In this document: positions 9,207 to 32,018 of the stretch, one piece after another
Layout: every line of letters begins with the position of its first letter
Position numbering within the stretch: position 1 is the first letter of the stretch
Assembly: GCA_036273515.1 (NCBI GenBank)
Contig: DASUHM010000096.1
Span: 1-36,557, forward strand
Origin: Gaiellales bacterium
GTDB lineage: Bacteria; Actinomycetota; Thermoleophilia; Gaiellales; JAICJC01
Length of the DNA: 36,557 nucleotides
Direction: 5' to 3'
The notes under the pieces: generated by a model
Told to the model about the DNA's origin: nothing
What the model saw: the letters and a program-made list of their open reading frames with translations, nothing else
Databases searched by the model: none
Made by a program: the position numbers and the translations under genes

Positions 9207-9968
9207 ATGGAGCCCGATCAGGTCGTCCGCGAGTTCACCCACCAGTCCGAGTCGTTCAACGTCGCGGCGGTGATGCGCTCGGCCGACACGCTCGGCCGGC
9301 TCGTCGGCCTGATCCCGGCTGCGCCGGATGCGCACTGGCTCGATGCGGCCTGCGGTCCGGGCCTGGTCGCCCGCGGTCTCGCGCACCGGGTCGGCGAGGT
9401 GCGCGGCGTCGACATGACGCCGGCGATGGTCGAGGTCGCGCGGCGCGAGGCGGCGGCGGAGGGCATCCGAAACGCCGTCTTCTCGGTCGGCGACGCGACC
9501 GCACTCGACTTCGCGGACGCGAGCTTCGACGGCGCCGTCACCCGCTTCAGCCTGCATCACATCCCGGTGCCGGGTCGCGTCGTCACGGAGCTGGCCCGGG
9601 TCGTGCGTCCCGGTGGCGCCGTCGTGCTCGCCGATCACGTCACCTCGGCCGACGCCGACGAGGCCGCATGGCATCAGGAGATCGAGCGCCTGCGCGACCC
9701 GTCGCACTGGGCCTGCCTGACGCCGGCGCGGCTGCGGGCGCTCGGCGAGGCGGCCGGCCTCGTGCTCGACCGCGAGGACGAGACGCAGATCTCGATCGAC
9801 TACGAGGAGTGGATCGGCCGCGGCAGCGGCGGGCCGGGCTCAGCCGGCCTGATCGCCCGGGCGCTCGCCGACCGCGTCCCCGCTCCCGATGTCTTCCGGG
9901 TCGTCGACCGCAGCGATGGGCGCCGTCTCGAGCTGCGTTACTGGGTCTCGGTCTGGCTTCGGCCGTGA
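9207..9968 (+). CDS. Class I SAM-dependent methyltransferase (UbiE/type-11-like)
   Basis: A 253-residue methyltransferase. Motif I is WLDAACGPGLVARGLA (about residues 44-59) and binds S-adenosylmethionine. The acidic end of strand 2 is VRGVDMTPAMVEVAR, motif II is GDATALDFADASFDGAVTRF, and post-II is ARVVRPGGAVVLADHV. This is the pattern of small-molecule methyltransferases. It is divergent from the arsR run across 68 bases that contain the palindrome. A TAGAAC box 6 bases before the ATG suggests a leaderless transcript. The substrate is unknown. Its 3' end overlaps the convergent tatA-like gene by about 129 bases. Confidence 0.88.
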   Translation: MEPDQVVREFTHQSESFNVAAVMRSADTLGRLVGLIPAAPDAHWLDAACGPGLVARGLAHRVGEVRGVDMTPAMVEVARREAAAEGIRNAVFSVGDATALDFADASFDGAVTRFSLHHIPVPGRVVTELARVVRPGGAVVLADHVTSADADEAAWHQEIERLRDPSHWACLTPARLRALGEAAGLVLDREDETQISIDYEEWIGRGSGGPGSAGLIARALADRVPAPDVFRVVDRSDGRRLELRYWVSVWLRP

Positions 9969-10444: not shown

Positions 10445-11971
10445 ATGTCGCATCGTCGACGCGCCGGCCGAGCGCTGGCGGGGATCGGGTTGCTCGCAGT
10501 GGCCGCGGTGGCATCCGCAGGCCCGGCAGGCGCCGCAACGCACAGCATCAGCCAGTTCACGATCAAGAGCCCGAACAATCAGCCGGGCGACATGACGATC
10601 GGGAACGACGGGAACGTCTGGTTCGTCGACCAGGCGACGAGCAAGGTTGCCCGGGTCACCAGGTCGGGCGGCATCGCCGGCTTCCTGGCCGCCGCGAACA
10701 GCCATCCGGTGGGGATCACGACGGGCTCCGACGGGGCCGTCTGGTTTACCGAGACGGCCGTAAACAGGGTCGGCCGCACGGTGTCGGGCTCGACCATCAA
10801 CCAGATCGCGCTGCCCACCACGGGTGTGAACGCGGTCAAGAGCCCGCGCGGCATCACGGCGGGCCCGGACGGCAACCTCTACGTGGTCGGCTTCAGCACG
10901 AACAACGTCGCCCGGATCAACGTCGGGACGCCTCACACCGTGACCAACGTCGCCAGCCTCGGCGCCGGCAAGGGCCCGGTGCGGATCACGACCGGTCCCG
11001 ACGGCAACCTGTGGGTGACCGAGACCACGAGCCATCAGGTCGCCCGGGTCACGCCCGGCGGCGGCGTCACCCAGTTCAACCTGCCGGCCAAGGCCGCGCC
11101 GTCCCGGATCGTCTCCGGCCCCGACGGCAACCTGTGGGTCACCGAGCCGGGGATCAACAAGGTCGCGGTCGTCACGACCGCCGGCACCGTCAGCCAGATC
11201 GGCATCGCCGGCAAGCCGACCGGCATCACCTCGGGCGCCGACAACTTCATGTGGGCGACGCTCCAGAGCGGCACGGGCGGCAACGCCATCGCCCGCATCC
11301 CGATCGCGGCTCCGCGCACGATCAAGAAGTTCACGGTCCCGACCGCGAAGTCGCTCCCGAGCGGCATCACCGTCGGCGACGACGGCAACATCTGGTTCAG
11401 CGAGACGGCCGGGAACAAGATCGGCCGCCTCATGGATGCCCCCGGCCACACGAGCTTCGTGGCCGTGAACGACCACGGCTACGCGCCGGCCTCGCAGGGC
11501 ATCGCGCTCCAGACCGGCAAGAACCACACGCCGACCAAGGTGGAGTGGCTGTTCCGCGGCGCCAAGAGCCACAGCGTCGTCGACTCGACGGGCCTCGGCC
11601 TGTTCAGCTCGGGCACGCAGGCGCCGGGCACGAACTTCGTCACGACGTTCGGGAGTGCGGGGGCGTTCACGTACCACTCGACCGTCGGCACGGACACGAT
11701 GACCGGCACCATCAAGGTCACCCCGAGCGCGGTGCTCTCGAACGGGAACATCATCGTCTCGGTCGGCAACTCCGCGATGAGCGGCAGCGTCACCTGCGAC
11801 GTGCAGGTCGAGGCACCCGGAGCGACCGTGTTCTCGCCTGCTGGCAGCAACATCACCAACACGACGTTCACCTACAACCCGAGCGCACACGGCGTGTACA
11901 AGTTCCAGGTGCGCACGGTCAACGGCGGCAACATGTCGGGCTGGTCTCCCTCGGCCCGCGTGACCTTCTAG
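10445..11971 (+). CDS. Secreted Vgb-like beta-propeller with a C-terminal cupredoxin-like domain
   Basis: A 508-residue exported protein with signal peptide 1-31 (MSHRRRAGRALAGIGLLA onwards to AGAA). Residues about 32-330 are repeats of the streptogramin/virginiamycin-B-lyase-like propeller, each blade carrying a GPDGNLWVTE-type motif (GNDGNVWFVD, GSDGAVWFTE, GPDGNLYVVG, GPDGNLWVTE twice, GDDGNIWFSE). The next ~100 residues (FVAVNDHGYAPASQ, KVEWLFRG, SHSVVDSTGLGLFSSG, AFTYHSTVGTDTMTGTIKV) follow a plastocyanin-like sheet. The Cys and second His expected in the last copper-binding loop are missing, so copper binding is doubtful. The last ~85 residues look like an Ig-like domain. The start is fixed by AAGGAGGG 10 bases upstream. 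The function may be adhesion or extracellular binding rather than lyase activity. Confidence 0.85.
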   Translation: MSHRRRAGRALAGIGLLAVAAVASAGPAGAATHSISQFTIKSPNNQPGDMTIGNDGNVWFVDQATSKVARVTRSGGIAGFLAAANSHPVGITTGSDGAVWFTETAVNRVGRTVSGSTINQIALPTTGVNAVKSPRGITAGPDGNLYVVGFSTNNVARINVGTPHTVTNVASLGAGKGPVRITTGPDGNLWVTETTSHQVARVTPGGGVTQFNLPAKAAPSRIVSGPDGNLWVTEPGINKVAVVTTAGTVSQIGIAGKPTGITSGADNFMWATLQSGTGGNAIARIPIAAPRTIKKFTVPTAKSLPSGITVGDDGNIWFSETAGNKIGRLMDAPGHTSFVAVNDHGYAPASQGIALQTGKNHTPTKVEWLFRGAKSHSVVDSTGLGLFSSGTQAPGTNFVTTFGSAGAFTYHSTVGTDTMTGTIKVTPSAVLSNGNIIVSVGNSAMSGSVTCDVQVEAPGATVFSPAGSNITNTTFTYNPSAHGVYKFQVRTVNGGNMSGWSPSARVTF

Positions 11972-11986
11972 TCGCAACACCGAAAG

Positions 11987-12020
11987 ACGCCGGCCGGAGA
12001 GTCCGCTCTCCGGCCGGCGT
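11987..12020. terminator. 15-bp bidirectional hairpin terminator
   Basis: ACGCCGGCCGGAGAG (11987-12001) and CTCTCCGGCCGGCGT (12006-12020) pair perfectly around TCCG. It lies between the convergent propeller gene (stop 11971) and the ornithine-cyclodeaminase-like gene (stop 12028), serving both. Confidence 0.85.
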
Positions 12021-12027
12021 TCGCAAT

Positions 12028-13032
12028 TCAGCGGTAGGGCAGCCGCGTCCCGACGCCCATGTCCCGCGCGCGCTCGAGCATCGCTTGGCCCAGCGCGATG
12101 TCGGTCGTCGAGAGGCCGCGGTGCCAGAGCAGGATGCGCTCGTCGGCGCGCTCCCGGCCGGGCCGGTCGCCGCACACGATCTGGCCGAGCTCGGCATGCA
12201 CCCGCTCCGCCGTCAGCCGGCCCGAGTCGACGTGCGCGCGCAGCGCCCCGAGCGGGCCGGCATGGGCCTGGCCCCAGTCGTCGACGACGATCTTTTGCAT
12301 CGCGTCGGTCAGGTCGAGCTCGACGGCGCTGACGGTGCCGTAGGGCACGACCAGCGTTCCCGGGCCGATCCAGGCGGTGCGCAGGAGCGGCTCGGGCGCC
12401 TCGAGCCGTGACGCCTCGACGACGATGTCGGCGCCGCGGACGCACTCCTCCCAGCCGTCGACCGCCCGCACATCGGCGTGCAGCTCGGCGTCCAGCCGCT
12501 CGGCCAGCGCCGCCCGGCTCTCGGCGGTACGCGAGTGGATGCGCACCTCCTCGATGGCGGGCAGGACGTGGCACAGCAGGCGCACGTTCCACTCCGCCGT
12601 GCCCCTGCTGCCGACGTGGCCGAGGACGCGGCTGTCCGGCCGGGCCAGGTGGCGGCCGCCGATGGCGGTCACGGCGCCCGTGCGCATCGCGGTGATCGCG
12701 GTCGCGTCGACGATCGCGATGGGGACGCCCGTCGCCGGGTCCATCAGCAGCAGCAGCGCCAGCTCGGAGGGGAGGCCGAGCCGGCCGTTGTCGACGAAGT
12801 CGCCCACCACCTTCACCCCGGCCACGCCGTCGCGCGGGAGCGACCCGCGCAGGACGTTGAAGTGTCCGTCGGCGCCTGCGCCGGGGAAGAGGTGGACGCG
12901 CGGCTCGAGCACGACCTCGCCGCGGCCCTGGGCGGCCAGCACGTCGGCCACCGGATCGAGGATCGCGTCGCCGGCCAGCTCGAGCCGCTCGACGTCGGCG
13001 CCGCTCAGGTAGGTCAGCTCGATTCCTGCCAC
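12028..13032 (-). CDS. Ornithine cyclodeaminase / mu-crystallin family protein
   Basis: A 334-residue NAD(P)-dependent protein. LTYLSGADVERL is the family start. GVKVVGDFVDNGRLGLPSEL (about residues 72-91) and ITAMRTGAVTAIGGRHLARP (about 117-136) are the substrate-binding Lys and Arg-Thr-Gly segments. RVLGHVGSRGTAEWNVRLL is a Rossmann site; note the GxGxQA form is altered to GHVGSRGTAE. VVVEASRLEAPEPLL and DDWGQAHAGPLG follow the family pattern. Members include ornithine cyclodeaminase, alanine dehydrogenase, ketimine reductases and EutC of ectoine breakdown. The GTG at 13032 overlaps the upstream lyase stop by 19 bases, so the pair is coupled. Joint action with the lyase on one amino acid or imine is inferred. 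Confidence 0.85.
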   Translation of the reverse strand: MAGIELTYLSGADVERLELAGDAILDPVADVLAAQGRGEVVLEPRVHLFPGAGADGHFNVLRGSLPRDGVAGVKVVGDFVDNGRLGLPSELALLLLMDPATGVPIAIVDATAITAMRTGAVTAIGGRHLARPDSRVLGHVGSRGTAEWNVRLLCHVLPAIEEVRIHSRTAESRAALAERLDAELHADVRAVDGWEECVRGADIVVEASRLEAPEPLLRTAWIGPGTLVVPYGTVSAVELDLTDAMQKIVVDDWGQAHAGPLGALRAHVDSGRLTAERVHAELGQIVCGDRPGRERADERILLWHRGLSTTDIALGQAMLERARDMGVGTRLPYR

Positions 13033-24766: not shown

Positions 24767-25840
24767 ATGCCAGAGCCCCACGTCCAACCGACGGTCGGCA
24801 CCGCCGGCTCGCACTCGCCGGCGCCCGAGGTGCACAACACCGCCGCGCGGCTCGAGGCGCTCGGCGCCGAGACGATGCCGGCCGCCGAGCACTTCCGCCG
24901 CGAGCACTTCCCCGCGCCGGTGATCGATCCGCACGGCTGGCGACTGGTGCTCGGTGGGCTCGTCGAAACGCCGGCGATCCTGGCGCTCTCCGACCTGCAG
25001 GCGCTCCCGGCCCGGACGCTCCCGGTCGTGCTCGAGTGCGCCGGCCATCGCCGCGCCGAGCTCACGCCACCCGTGCCCGGACTGCAGTGGCAGGTCGGCG
25101 CGGTGTCCGAGGCGCGCTGGACGGGCGCGCGGCTGCGCGACCTGCTCGAGCGCGCCGGCGTCGACACGCGGGCGACCGGCGTCGTCCTCACCGGCGCCGA
25201 CCGCGGCCCGTTCGAGGGCGACGGCGGCCGGCACGCGTACGGCCGCTCGCTGCCGCTGCGGAAGGCGATCGATCCCGACACGCTGCTCGCCTACGAGATG
25301 GACGGCGAGCCGATCCCGGCCGCGCACGGCGGGCCCGTGCGGGCGATCGTGCCCGGCTGGTACGCCACCGACTCCGTGAAGTGGCTCGAACGGATCCAGG
25401 TGGCGGCGGAGGAGTACGAAGGGCCGTTCCACGCCGTCGACTACCGCTTCGCCGCCGCGGACGACCCCGGGCCGGGGGAGCGAATGGAGCGGGTGCCCGT
25501 GCACTCGCTGGTGACCCAGCCCGCACCCGGCACGGCGCTCGACCCCGGCCTCGCCCATATACGCGGTATCGCCTGGAGCGGCGGTGGCGCGATCACCCGC
25601 GTCGAGGTGCAGGTGGACGGCGGCGAGTGGCGGCGCGCGACGATCGCCGGCCGCGCCGGCCTGTACGGCCGCACCCGGTTCGAGCACGCCTTCGCGGCCG
25701 AGCCGGGGAGGCACACGATCGCCGTGCGCGCCCGCGAGGCGAGCGGCGACGCGCAACCGGAGGAGCCCGTCTGGAACAGGCGCGGCTACCGCAACAACGC
25801 CGTCCACCGGGTCACGGTGACGGTCAGGGAGGCACGCTGA
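24767..25840 (+). CDS. Molybdopterin-dependent oxidoreductase, sulfite oxidase family
   Basis: A 357-residue protein with a sulfite-oxidase-type molybdenum domain (RREHFPAPVIDP, then VVLECAGHRRAEL with the molybdenum-ligand Cys91, then VRAIVPGWYATDSVKWLERI). A C-terminal Mo-co dimerisation, Ig-like domain follows (RGIAWSGGGAITRVEVQVDG, and WNRRGYRNNAVHRV at the end). No heme or Tat signal is seen, so a cytosolic enzyme is likely. The expected reaction is sulfite to sulfate, although relatives reduce methionine sulfoxide or act on other S compounds. Its stop overlaps the next ATG (TGATG), coupling it to a thiol dioxygenase: a plausible organic-sulfur-to-sulfate module. Confidence 0.9.
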   Translation: MPEPHVQPTVGTAGSHSPAPEVHNTAARLEALGAETMPAAEHFRREHFPAPVIDPHGWRLVLGGLVETPAILALSDLQALPARTLPVVLECAGHRRAELTPPVPGLQWQVGAVSEARWTGARLRDLLERAGVDTRATGVVLTGADRGPFEGDGGRHAYGRSLPLRKAIDPDTLLAYEMDGEPIPAAHGGPVRAIVPGWYATDSVKWLERIQVAAEEYEGPFHAVDYRFAAADDPGPGERMERVPVHSLVTQPAPGTALDPGLAHIRGIAWSGGGAITRVEVQVDGGEWRRATIAGRAGLYGRTRFEHAFAAEPGRHTIAVRAREASGDAQPEEPVWNRRGYRNNAVHRVTVTVREAR

Positions 25841-26394
25841 TGGGCACGTTCGCACGCGACGCCGCAGTCGCCAACGAGACGGTCGCCGCCGACGCCGCGC
25901 TGGACGCGTGGCTGGCCGACCGCGACCGGGACAGGGAGTCCACACGGGCCGAGCTCGAGGAGCTCGTGCGCGAGCTGGCAACGCGGCCGGATCTCTGGAG
26001 CGGGCACGTGCGCCACTCGCAGGTCGAGCGGATCTACGTCCGCCTGCACCTGGACGACCATCTGGAGCTGTGGCTGATCTGCTGGTCGCAGCGGCAGGAC
26101 ACCGGCTTCCACGACCACGACGGCAGCCGCGGCGCGGTGGCCGTGGTGGGCGGCGCGCTCGCCGAGCGGCGGCTGGCGGCGGGCTGCGCCCAGCCGCCGA
26201 CGGCGATCTACCCGGCCGGCGCGGCCTTCTCGTTCGGGGCGACGCACATCCACGACGTCTCCCAGACGGGCGCCACCCTCGCGACGTCCCTGCACGTCTA
26301 CTCGCCCCCGCTGGGCGAGATGGGCTTCTACGAGGTCGCGCCGGACGGCACCCTCAGCCGCCGCACGGGCGACTACCGCGAAGAGTTCTGCTAA
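25840..26394 (+). CDS. Cysteine dioxygenase-type thiol dioxygenase
   Basis: A 184-residue cupin of the CDO family. Metal ligands are His91 and His93 in FHDHDGSRGAVAVVGG and a third in THIHDVSQ (His136 or His138). LHVYSPPLGEMGFYEV is the typical family C-terminal segment. CDO enzymes add oxygen to the sulfur of cysteine or 3-mercaptopropionate to give a sulfinate, using Fe(II). Length is close to bacterial CDOs. It is coupled to the sulfite-oxidase-like gene. The 65-base repeat element begins two bases after its stop codon. Confidence 0.88.
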   Translation: MGTFARDAAVANETVAADAALDAWLADRDRDRESTRAELEELVRELATRPDLWSGHVRHSQVERIYVRLHLDDHLELWLICWSQRQDTGFHDHDGSRGAVAVVGGALAERRLAAGCAQPPTAIYPAGAAFSFGATHIHDVSQTGATLATSLHVYSPPLGEMGFYEVAPDGTLSRRTGDYREEFC

Positions 26395-26700
26395 TCGGGG
26401 TCAGACCCCGAACGGCGGCCGTGCGTCTTTCGTGACACTTCCGTTCGGGGTCTGACCCCGGTCCAGCCGAAGAGCGCCGCGCCCGCCCCGACCAGGAGCG
26501 AAGCGGCCCAGAGCAGGTCGAGGTTGACCCAGGCGCGGCGCAGGATGCCGACGCCGACTACCTCGAACACGACCACGGCGACGGCGGCCGCGACGGCCAC
26601 CATCGCCAGCGTGTGCACGACGACCGCGGCGGCGCCGAACTCCAGGCCGCCCGGGATCGGCCCGTCGCCCGCCGGGACGCGGTGGGCGCTCCCGGGCCGC
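26391..26700 (-). pseudogene. 3' fragment of an integral membrane protein gene
   Basis: The minus strand encodes two hydrophobic helices (AAVVVHTLAMVAVAAAVAVV, and DLLWAASLLVGAGAALFGW) joined by GVGILRRAWVNLDL, a pattern I associate with small actinobacterial membrane proteins. Upstream of about 26700 the sequence belongs to another gene on the opposite strand, so the first helices and the start are missing. The last ~20 residues are read through repeat copy A. An ATG at 26750 could give a 119-residue frame, but its start would lie in the sulfotransferase fragment. The exact junction is approximate. Confidence 0.5.
26396..26460 (+). repeat. 65-base inverted-repeat element, copy A
   Basis: Perfect 20-base inverted arms (26396-26415 and 26441-26460) flank a 25-base centre. 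Each arm contains the palindrome GGGGTCnGACCCC followed or preceded by the CGAACGG/CCGTTCG part. It sits directly after the thiol dioxygenase stop. Copy B at 31918-31982 has the same length and architecture on the other strand; when both are read in the same orientation, their centres match at 17 of 25 positions. Confidence 0.85.
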
Positions 26701-27129
26701 CGGCGCCTGGCCGTTCCGGATCTCGTGCAGTCGGTGTTCCCGAACCTCACCTACCTCACCGTCACCCGCCGCGACAAGGTGCGCCAGGCGGTGTCGCTGT
26801 GGCGGGCGCAGAACGCGGATCGCGCCGCCGGTGACCGCCTCACCTACAGCCACGCCGCCATCGCCCACCTGATCAGGGACATCGAGGATCACGAGTTCGG
26901 CTGGCGGGCGTTCTTCCGCGAGAGCGGCGTCGAGCCGTTCGAGGTCGTCTACGAGGACTTCGCGGCCAGCTACGAGGACGCGCTCCGCGAGATCCTGCGC
27001 CACGTCGGCTTCCCCGAGGCCGACACCGTCGCGATCGCGACGCCGACGCGGCGCCGTCAGGCCGACGACCTCTCGCAGCGCTGGACCGAGCGCTACAAGG
27101 CCGAGTCCGGCCGGCTCGCGCACGCCTAG
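26700..27129 (+). pseudogene. 3' fragment of a Stf0-type sulfotransferase gene
   Basis: From about 26720 the plus strand encodes SVFPNLTYLTVTRRDKVRQA, then VSLWRAQNADRA, HLIRDIEDHEFGWRAFF and VVYEDFAASYEDALREIL. This is the C-terminal half of the Stf0 (trehalose 2-sulfotransferase-like) family. The N-terminal half, with the PAPS 5'-phosphosulfate loop, is absent. A frame open from 26524 precedes it but encodes low-complexity Thr/Ala/Pro antisense to the membrane fragment. It is therefore non-functional as a sulfotransferase, or a remnant. The boundary near 26700 is approximate. Confidence 0.65.
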
Positions 27130-27145
27130 ACCTACGATCCCGGGC

Positions 27146-27751
27146 ATGTGGATCGACCCGCCCGCCGCGGACGCCGTGCTCGTGCTCGCCCACGGCGCCG
27201 GCTCGGGCATGCGCTCGCCGTTCATGGCCGGCTTCAGCGAGGAGATCGGGCGCCTGGGCGTGGCGACGCTGCGGTTCGAGTTCCCCTACATGCAGGCGGG
27301 GCGGCGCGCGCCCGACCGGCCGCCGGTGCTGATCGACGCGTGGCGGGAGGCGTTCGTGGAGGGCGCGTCCAGGGCGGCCGGCCGGCCGGTGTTCGCGGGC
27401 GGCAAGTCGATGGGGGGCCGCATCGCCTCGATGGCCTCCGCCGAGGGCATGCCGGCGGCGGGGCTCGTCTTCCTCGGCTACCCGCTCCATCCGCCCGGGC
27501 GGCCGGAGAAGATCCGCGACGCCCATCTGTCCGACGTGCCGGTGCCGATGCTCTTCCTGCAGGGCTCGCGCGACAGCTTCGCCCGGCCCGACCTGCTCGC
27601 CGGCGTGATCGCCCGGCTCGGCCCGCGGGCCGAGTACGTCGAGGTGACGGGCGGCGACCATTCGTTCCGAGTGCCCGGCGGCCCGCGCGACGCCGCGGTG
27701 ATCGGCGCGTCGCTGGCCGAGCCGGCGGCGCGGTTCATTCGAGCCGTCTGA
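27146..27751 (+). CDS. Small alpha/beta hydrolase (TEX30/KANL3-like)
   Basis: A 201-residue serine hydrolase-fold protein. VLVLAHGAGSGMRSPFM carries the oxyanion-region HGAG. GGKSMGGRIA (about residues 90-99) is the nucleophile elbow with Ser. LQGSRDSFA supplies the Asp, and GGDHSFRV the His. Family members are uncharacterised hydrolases. TACGAT lies 7 bases before the ATG and there is no ribosome site, so it is probably leaderless. The 3' end overlaps the convergent GNAT gene by 17 bases. Confidence 0.87.
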   Translation: MWIDPPAADAVLVLAHGAGSGMRSPFMAGFSEEIGRLGVATLRFEFPYMQAGRRAPDRPPVLIDAWREAFVEGASRAAGRPVFAGGKSMGGRIASMASAEGMPAAGLVFLGYPLHPPGRPEKIRDAHLSDVPVPMLFLQGSRDSFARPDLLAGVIARLGPRAEYVEVTGGDHSFRVPGGPRDAAVIGASLAEPAARFIRAV

Positions 27752-31917: not shown

Positions 31918-31982
31918 CGGGGTCAGACCCCGAACGTAAGTGCAACGGAACTGCAACGGCCGACGTTCGGGGTCTGACCCCG
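31918..31982 (-). repeat. 65-base inverted-repeat element, copy B
   Basis: Perfect 20-base arms (31918-31937 and 31963-31982) flank a 25-base centre. Read on the minus strand, its centre aligns with copy A at 17 of 25 positions without gaps, with conserved ends CGGCCGT and CACTT. The innermost arm pair is G-C in copy A and T-A here, a compensatory change. It lies in the divergent gap between the flavoprotein and the metallophosphoesterase. Confidence 0.85.
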
Positions 31983-32018
31983 GTTCGGGTGGTCGGGAAG
32001 ATGGGTGTTTTTCCCCGT

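Follow-up and report, generated by a model that had tools for sequence, protein, structure and literature searches.

Within a 36,557 nt stretch of DNA from a Gaiellales bacterium (hereafter the window), the 3′ remnants of two genes, one for a membrane protein on the minus strand and the other for an Stf0-type sulfotransferase on the plus strand, meet at a join where both have lost their 5′ parts. Our preferred reading, to which we attach a probability of roughly 0.62, is that the sulfotransferase gene was gained beside a gene of the SBP56 family, and that a recent single deletion then took SBP56 along with the 5′ parts of both its neighbours. One such event would explain both of the facing truncations, as well as the absence of SBP56. 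Lineage-specific deletion scars and truncated pseudogenes are ordinary in bacteria, and the window resembles them in its joined gene ends, lost starts, single lost stop and missing gene in between; its only oddity is that Stf0 was not seen whole at this locus. Accordingly, what is found here appears to be recent, ordinary gene decay and no new kind of system, and is real as far as the assembly is trustworthy. The features of the locus are collected in Table 1, and the ORFs at 26391–26750 and 26524–27129 should not be annotated as intact genes.

Table 1. Features at and around the join (window coordinates)
Feature	Position	Strand	Basis
SorA/SoxC-like molybdopterin sulfite dehydrogenase, left anchor	24767..25840	+	PF00174 E 2.5e-56; PF03404 E 6.2e-16
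Cysteine-dioxygenase-like gene	25840..26394	+	PF05995 E 2.4e-13
Palindromic repeat element, copy A	26395..26462	.	Orthologous copy, G002 9483–9550
Membrane-gene stop codon site	26463..26465	-	TGA in G002, TGG in window (stop lost)
Membrane-gene 3′ remnant (likely SBP56 partner)	26466..26681	-	Residues 133–204 of 204
Join (putative deletion scar)	26680..26689	.	G002 homology ends 26679; Stf0-like residues from ~26689
Stf0-type sulfotransferase 3′ remnant	26689..27129	+	PF09037, profile 105–244 of 244
Right anchor, where G002 homology resumes (alpha/beta hydrolase gene 27146–27751)	27133..27751	+	PF20408 E 4.4e-51

Two gene remnants with facing truncations

The minus-strand remnant is 93 % identical over 72 residues (E 2e-35) to the end of an intact membrane protein of 204 aa encoded by a genome of the same genus, G002, and the last two long helices of the predicted structure (residues 145–174 and 186–203) fall within it. 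On the plus strand, the Pfam Stf0 family matches with an E-value of 9.6e-23 and 81.4 bits (cut-off 22). Compared with that family, the window gene shares the C-terminal ~57 % of the domain, complete to its end, without the N-terminal ~43 % (profile positions 1–104), which is unmatched. The original prediction had recognised the end of a membrane protein with its last two helices, the C-terminal half of an Stf0 sulfotransferase, and a cut on the facing side of each; all of this is upheld, with the cuts now placed at about 26680–26689. DNA homology of the membrane remnant to G002 is clear up to 26679, and the start of Stf0-like residues is taken from the furthest-reaching matches.

The extent of the loss from the sulfotransferase can be gauged from 23 whole-domain relatives, in which a median of 139 residues (range 102–186, counted from the upstream stop and hence an upper bound) precede the position of base 26722, indicating that a substantial N-terminal part is missing. 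In Stf0 proteins it is this part that carries the PAPS-binding loop. The remnant is free of internal stops and keeps the stop at its 3′ end. In-frame starts after the join (GTG at 26725, 26734, 26779 and 26791) all lie past the missing part, and the TTG at 26524, with which its frame opens, sits in the antisense of the membrane gene. Because the N-terminal part is missing, the remnant should not make a working protein. Its score against the NCBIfam trehalose 2-sulfotransferase model (NF047724) is 80.7 bits, far under the model cut-off of 400.

The membrane remnant has also lost its stop codon, with the result that its frame continues through the adjoining repeat element to 26391. The sole start listed for the resulting ORF is a GTG at 26750, which lies in the antisense of the sulfotransferase. 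Four histidines (H16, H51, H119 and H155) are invariant in 32 aligned members of this membrane family, and only H155 is left in the remnant. With three of the four missing, and the stop lost, this remnant likewise should not make a working protein. At E ≤ 1e-8 the window's genome contains no second membrane-gene copy; the protein was matched in 3 of the 61 genomes searched, with the window's own remnant counted.

Codon changes in the membrane tail bear on the age of the truncation. In the tail, which is as long as its counterpart in G002, 19 of 71 codons differ synonymously from that genome and 4 nonsynonymously; the corresponding figures are 43 and 24 of 201 codons for the hydrolase, and 74 and 48 of 357 codons for the sulfite dehydrogenase. 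Divergence of the tail is therefore no worse than that of these intact neighbours, which argues for a recent truncation; judging by sequence, most of the tail's divergence would predate it, from a time when the gene was still working.

The repeat element had been described in the original prediction as bordering the remnant, and copy A does adjoin the membrane remnant, at its far (3′) end and not at the join. As a cause of the join the element was considered and rejected, given that copy A has an orthologue in the corresponding position of G002, and that the membrane remnant separates it from the join. At least 54 matches to the element are found in the window's own genome (40 of 784 candidates scored), a figure in which hits within the window, and hits to one copy on its second strand, are also counted. 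Copy A folds into a near-perfect hairpin of −51.8 kcal/mol (z −7.6; equalled by none of 200 shuffled sequences), and sits between two convergent genes, adjoining their stop codons, an arrangement expected of a bidirectional terminator. A second copy (31918–31985) was not seen at the matching place of G002, where the sequence differs, suggesting that copies of the element move or get lost between species.

Comparison with an intact locus

The locus nearest to that of the window is in G002, and the two are collinear to the left and right of the join, in pieces that are 83–89 % identical in DNA. The gene order in G002 is a sulfite-dehydrogenase-like gene, the element, an intact membrane gene (L032:9556–10167) and an SBP56 gene, both on the minus strand, and then the hydrolase. 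Homology ends at window position 26679 (G002 9769) and picks up again at 27133 (G002 11651); the window lacks 1881 bases of G002 (L032 9770–11650) and has 453 others (26680–27132) instead. To the left, the sulfite dehydrogenase is 87 % identical to its G002 orthologue, and scores 209.9 bits against the NCBIfam SorA model, under the 600-bit cut-off; to the right, the hydrolase region corresponds to G002 11651–12247, also at 87 %. A 10-base similarity between window 26682–26691 and G002 9811–9820 (E 6.1) stands among many chance matches; it could reflect another short stretch lost from within the membrane gene, and is too short to use.

The SBP56 gene of G002 is intact (464 aa; PF05694 E 1.8e-180, profile 2–453 of 453) and belongs to the selenium-binding protein/methanethiol-oxidase superfamily. 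A search at E ≤ 1e-20 gave no SBP56 for the window's genome, whereas the gene is present in all four family relatives (G001–G004), and in 9 of the 61 genomes searched. Hence the original idea that one deletion removed the 5′ halves of both genes retains its standing as the simplest history, but needs enlarging, as the comparison with G002 indicates that a whole SBP56 gene between the two has gone as well. The functional consequence is that the SBP56 unit is lost from the window's genome. G002 is the only near relative to span the locus whole; SBP56 and the hydrolase are split between contigs in G001 and G003.

The window is one entire contig of a draft genome, probably metagenome-assembled, that comprises 98 contigs and 4.07 Mb, with a completeness of 96.58 % and a contamination of 3.89 %. 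A draft in this many pieces leaves some room for a join made from collapsed or chimeric strain variants, with the genes whole in the living organism. Such an artefact is nonetheless improbable, since the contig and G002 run collinear on either side of the join, and no contig of this nearly complete assembly carries SBP56, the 5′ part of the membrane gene or the 5′ part of Stf0 at the cut-offs used. Moreover, the lost stop codon is a separate sign of decay, located away from the join.

The cysteine-dioxygenase-like gene is missing at the matching place in G002, where the alignment skips it. In the window it shares a single base with the sulfite-dehydrogenase gene (TGATG). Contig C74 of the window's genome carries another gene of this kind (52 % identical), and the sole cysteine-dioxygenase-like match of G002 lies on a different contig from the locus.

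SBP56 is the usual upstream neighbour of the membrane gene

The association of the membrane gene with SBP56 extends well beyond G002. SBP56 lies directly upstream on the same strand in G002, G003 and G092, the last of these belonging to another family of the same order. A public-genome scan seeded on an alignment of the membrane protein yielded 99 confirmed loci, of which 80 were kept (L095–L174), spanning Chloroflexota, Acidobacteria, Thermoleophilia, Proteobacteria and others. SBP56 is directly upstream, on the same strand and at a gap of 300 bases or less, in 77 of these, the G002 and G092 contigs included. Amongst the other three, one has SBP56 at 1.7 kb with a GMC-oxidoreductase-like gene between, and two are without it. 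In the flanks of the same 80 loci (up to 8 kb on either side, and shorter at contig ends) no Stf0 was detected with an HMM constructed from 24 sequences of the class, from which the window and five rows that were long or partial had been excluded; built in this way, the model still finds the window remnant at 7e-40. From these counts it follows that the usual upstream neighbour of the membrane gene is SBP56, and not a sulfotransferase.

This bears directly on the original prediction of a divergent membrane-protein/sulfotransferase pair, directly adjacent to each other, from which a single deletion took the shared promoter and the two starts. Gene orientation and the facing cuts are what such a pair would leave behind, yet SBP56 separates the membrane gene from the hydrolase in G002, and is the direct upstream neighbour in G003, G092 and nearly every other locus inspected. 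As far as these genomes go, neither G001–G004 nor the 80 loci contain an adjacent membrane/Stf0 pair, which is the outcome that the prediction itself had named as counting against it, and the shared-promoter part of the prediction is therefore abandoned as highly improbable. Under the preferred reading, any shared intergenic region would have separated SBP56 and Stf0, as opposed to the membrane gene and Stf0.

The pairing is less strict when viewed from the other side. Within flanks of up to ~1.5 kb, a membrane gene is near SBP56 in 2 of 10 loci from relatives (G002 and G003), two of the loci (L072 and L073) ending at or within the SBP56 gene on the downstream side; thus SBP56 often occurs without the membrane gene.

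Origin of the sulfotransferase gene

The remnant is the only Stf0 match in the window's genome, and none was found in the family relatives G001–G004, two of which (G001 and G002) have a completeness of just 81–82 %. Across the class the gene is patchy, with a match in 40 of 399 genomes, and it was matched in 3 of 101 relatives; a phylum search gave 11 of 396 genomes at E ≤ 1e-20 (the window's own genome is included in each of these counts). The closest other examples in the class are 44 % identical (G144), or 50 % over most of the fragment (G303), with short pieces reaching 56 % identity in the class search, whilst five plasmid records match at 28–36 %. No near source was found across relatives, class, phylum or plasmids. 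Scanning public genomes for the Stf0 fragment turned up 77 pattern matches, with no relative among them; such single-protein scans reach close relatives only.

The patchiness of Stf0 in the class fits a horizontally gained gene. Together with its absence elsewhere in the window's family as searched, it makes a gain on the window's lineage likelier than a loss elsewhere, and the gene would thus be a presence specific to this lineage rather than an old partner of the membrane gene.

The same patchiness could be accommodated by a different course of events, in which recombination exchanged the SBP56 stretch for foreign DNA, with Stf0 already truncated or cut separately, and therefore never intact at this place. 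No relative with an intact Stf0 at the locus was found in G001–G004 or the 80 scanned loci, and the cysteine-dioxygenase gene is a second window-specific difference from G002, indicating that this spot has changed more than once. However, replacement needs at least as many events, and Stf0 is complete to its stop with G002 homology back after three bases, and so looks to have once been whole. Its codon-position GC (0.73/0.48/0.96) is, in addition, like that of its neighbours, and gives no obvious sign of DNA newly acquired from elsewhere. Taken together, we regard replacement as unlikely, and favour gain of an intact Stf0 gene followed by a single deletion.

In terms of this favoured history, the ancestor shared with G002 would have carried a rightward sulfite dehydrogenase gene, the element, leftward membrane-protein and SBP56 genes, and a rightward hydrolase gene, an arrangement supported by the comparison above. 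On the window's lineage, a rightward Stf0 gene, divergent from SBP56, would have been gained in the gap separating SBP56 from the hydrolase. A single deletion, being the fewest events, may then have run from around codon 133 of the membrane gene through all of SBP56 and into Stf0 near profile position 100. At roughly 2 kb or more, it would have removed both 5′ parts, and SBP56 with its upstream region. No genome with SBP56 and Stf0 side by side was found among those searched, and the intermediate state is consequently unseen.

The lost SBP56-membrane unit

The SBP56 of G002 scores 100.9 bits against the NCBIfam equivalog for the methanethiol oxidase MtoX, for which the cut-off is 650. According to a published account (PMC5739008), MtoX-type SBP56 is a copper enzyme whose gene sits in the mtoX operon together with SCO1/SenC and MauG. 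The gene lost in the window is similarly an SBP56 homologue located beside a partner gene, but, in contrast to the SCO1/SenC and MauG of the operon as presented there, its neighbour in G002 is the four-histidine membrane protein. Oxidation of a small thiol is the most likely activity of the intact unit, in which the membrane protein would be a dedicated partner, possibly for metal supply. A more specific version, in which a non-MtoX SBP56 is coupled to the four-histidine protein as a metal-supply or maturation partner, in the role proposed for SCO1/MauG with MtoX, is offered only tentatively, and we consider it somewhat doubtful. On that version, the window's lineage would be a natural knock-out of the SBP56-membrane unit.

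A Pfam search with the 32 aligned members of the membrane family gave a best E-value of 0.012, with no family matched by more than four of them, and the G002 protein has no match in NCBIfam. Its structural model has a mean pLDDT of 85.7. Foldseek against the PDB returned a best E-value of 0.33, and the best VIA-align result (Z 7.4, rmsd 6.3, 189 aligned) has many unrelated folds close behind; as no clear PDB match was found, no function is read from the fold. In literature searched largely by titles and abstract openings, no paper was recognised as describing a membrane partner of SBP56. With a family lacking a convincing Pfam or NCBIfam match located beside SBP56 in almost all of its sampled loci, the partner role becomes testable.

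Within the order, the SBP56 of G092 (L033:10935–12906; L100 = JABFWJ010000272.1) is 75 % identical to that of G002, and is thereby nearer to it than are the SBP56 proteins of G001, G003 and G004 (59, 62 and 45 %, respectively), which share the genus or family of G002. This similarity between families suggests horizontal exchange of the SBP56 unit or a contaminated bin.
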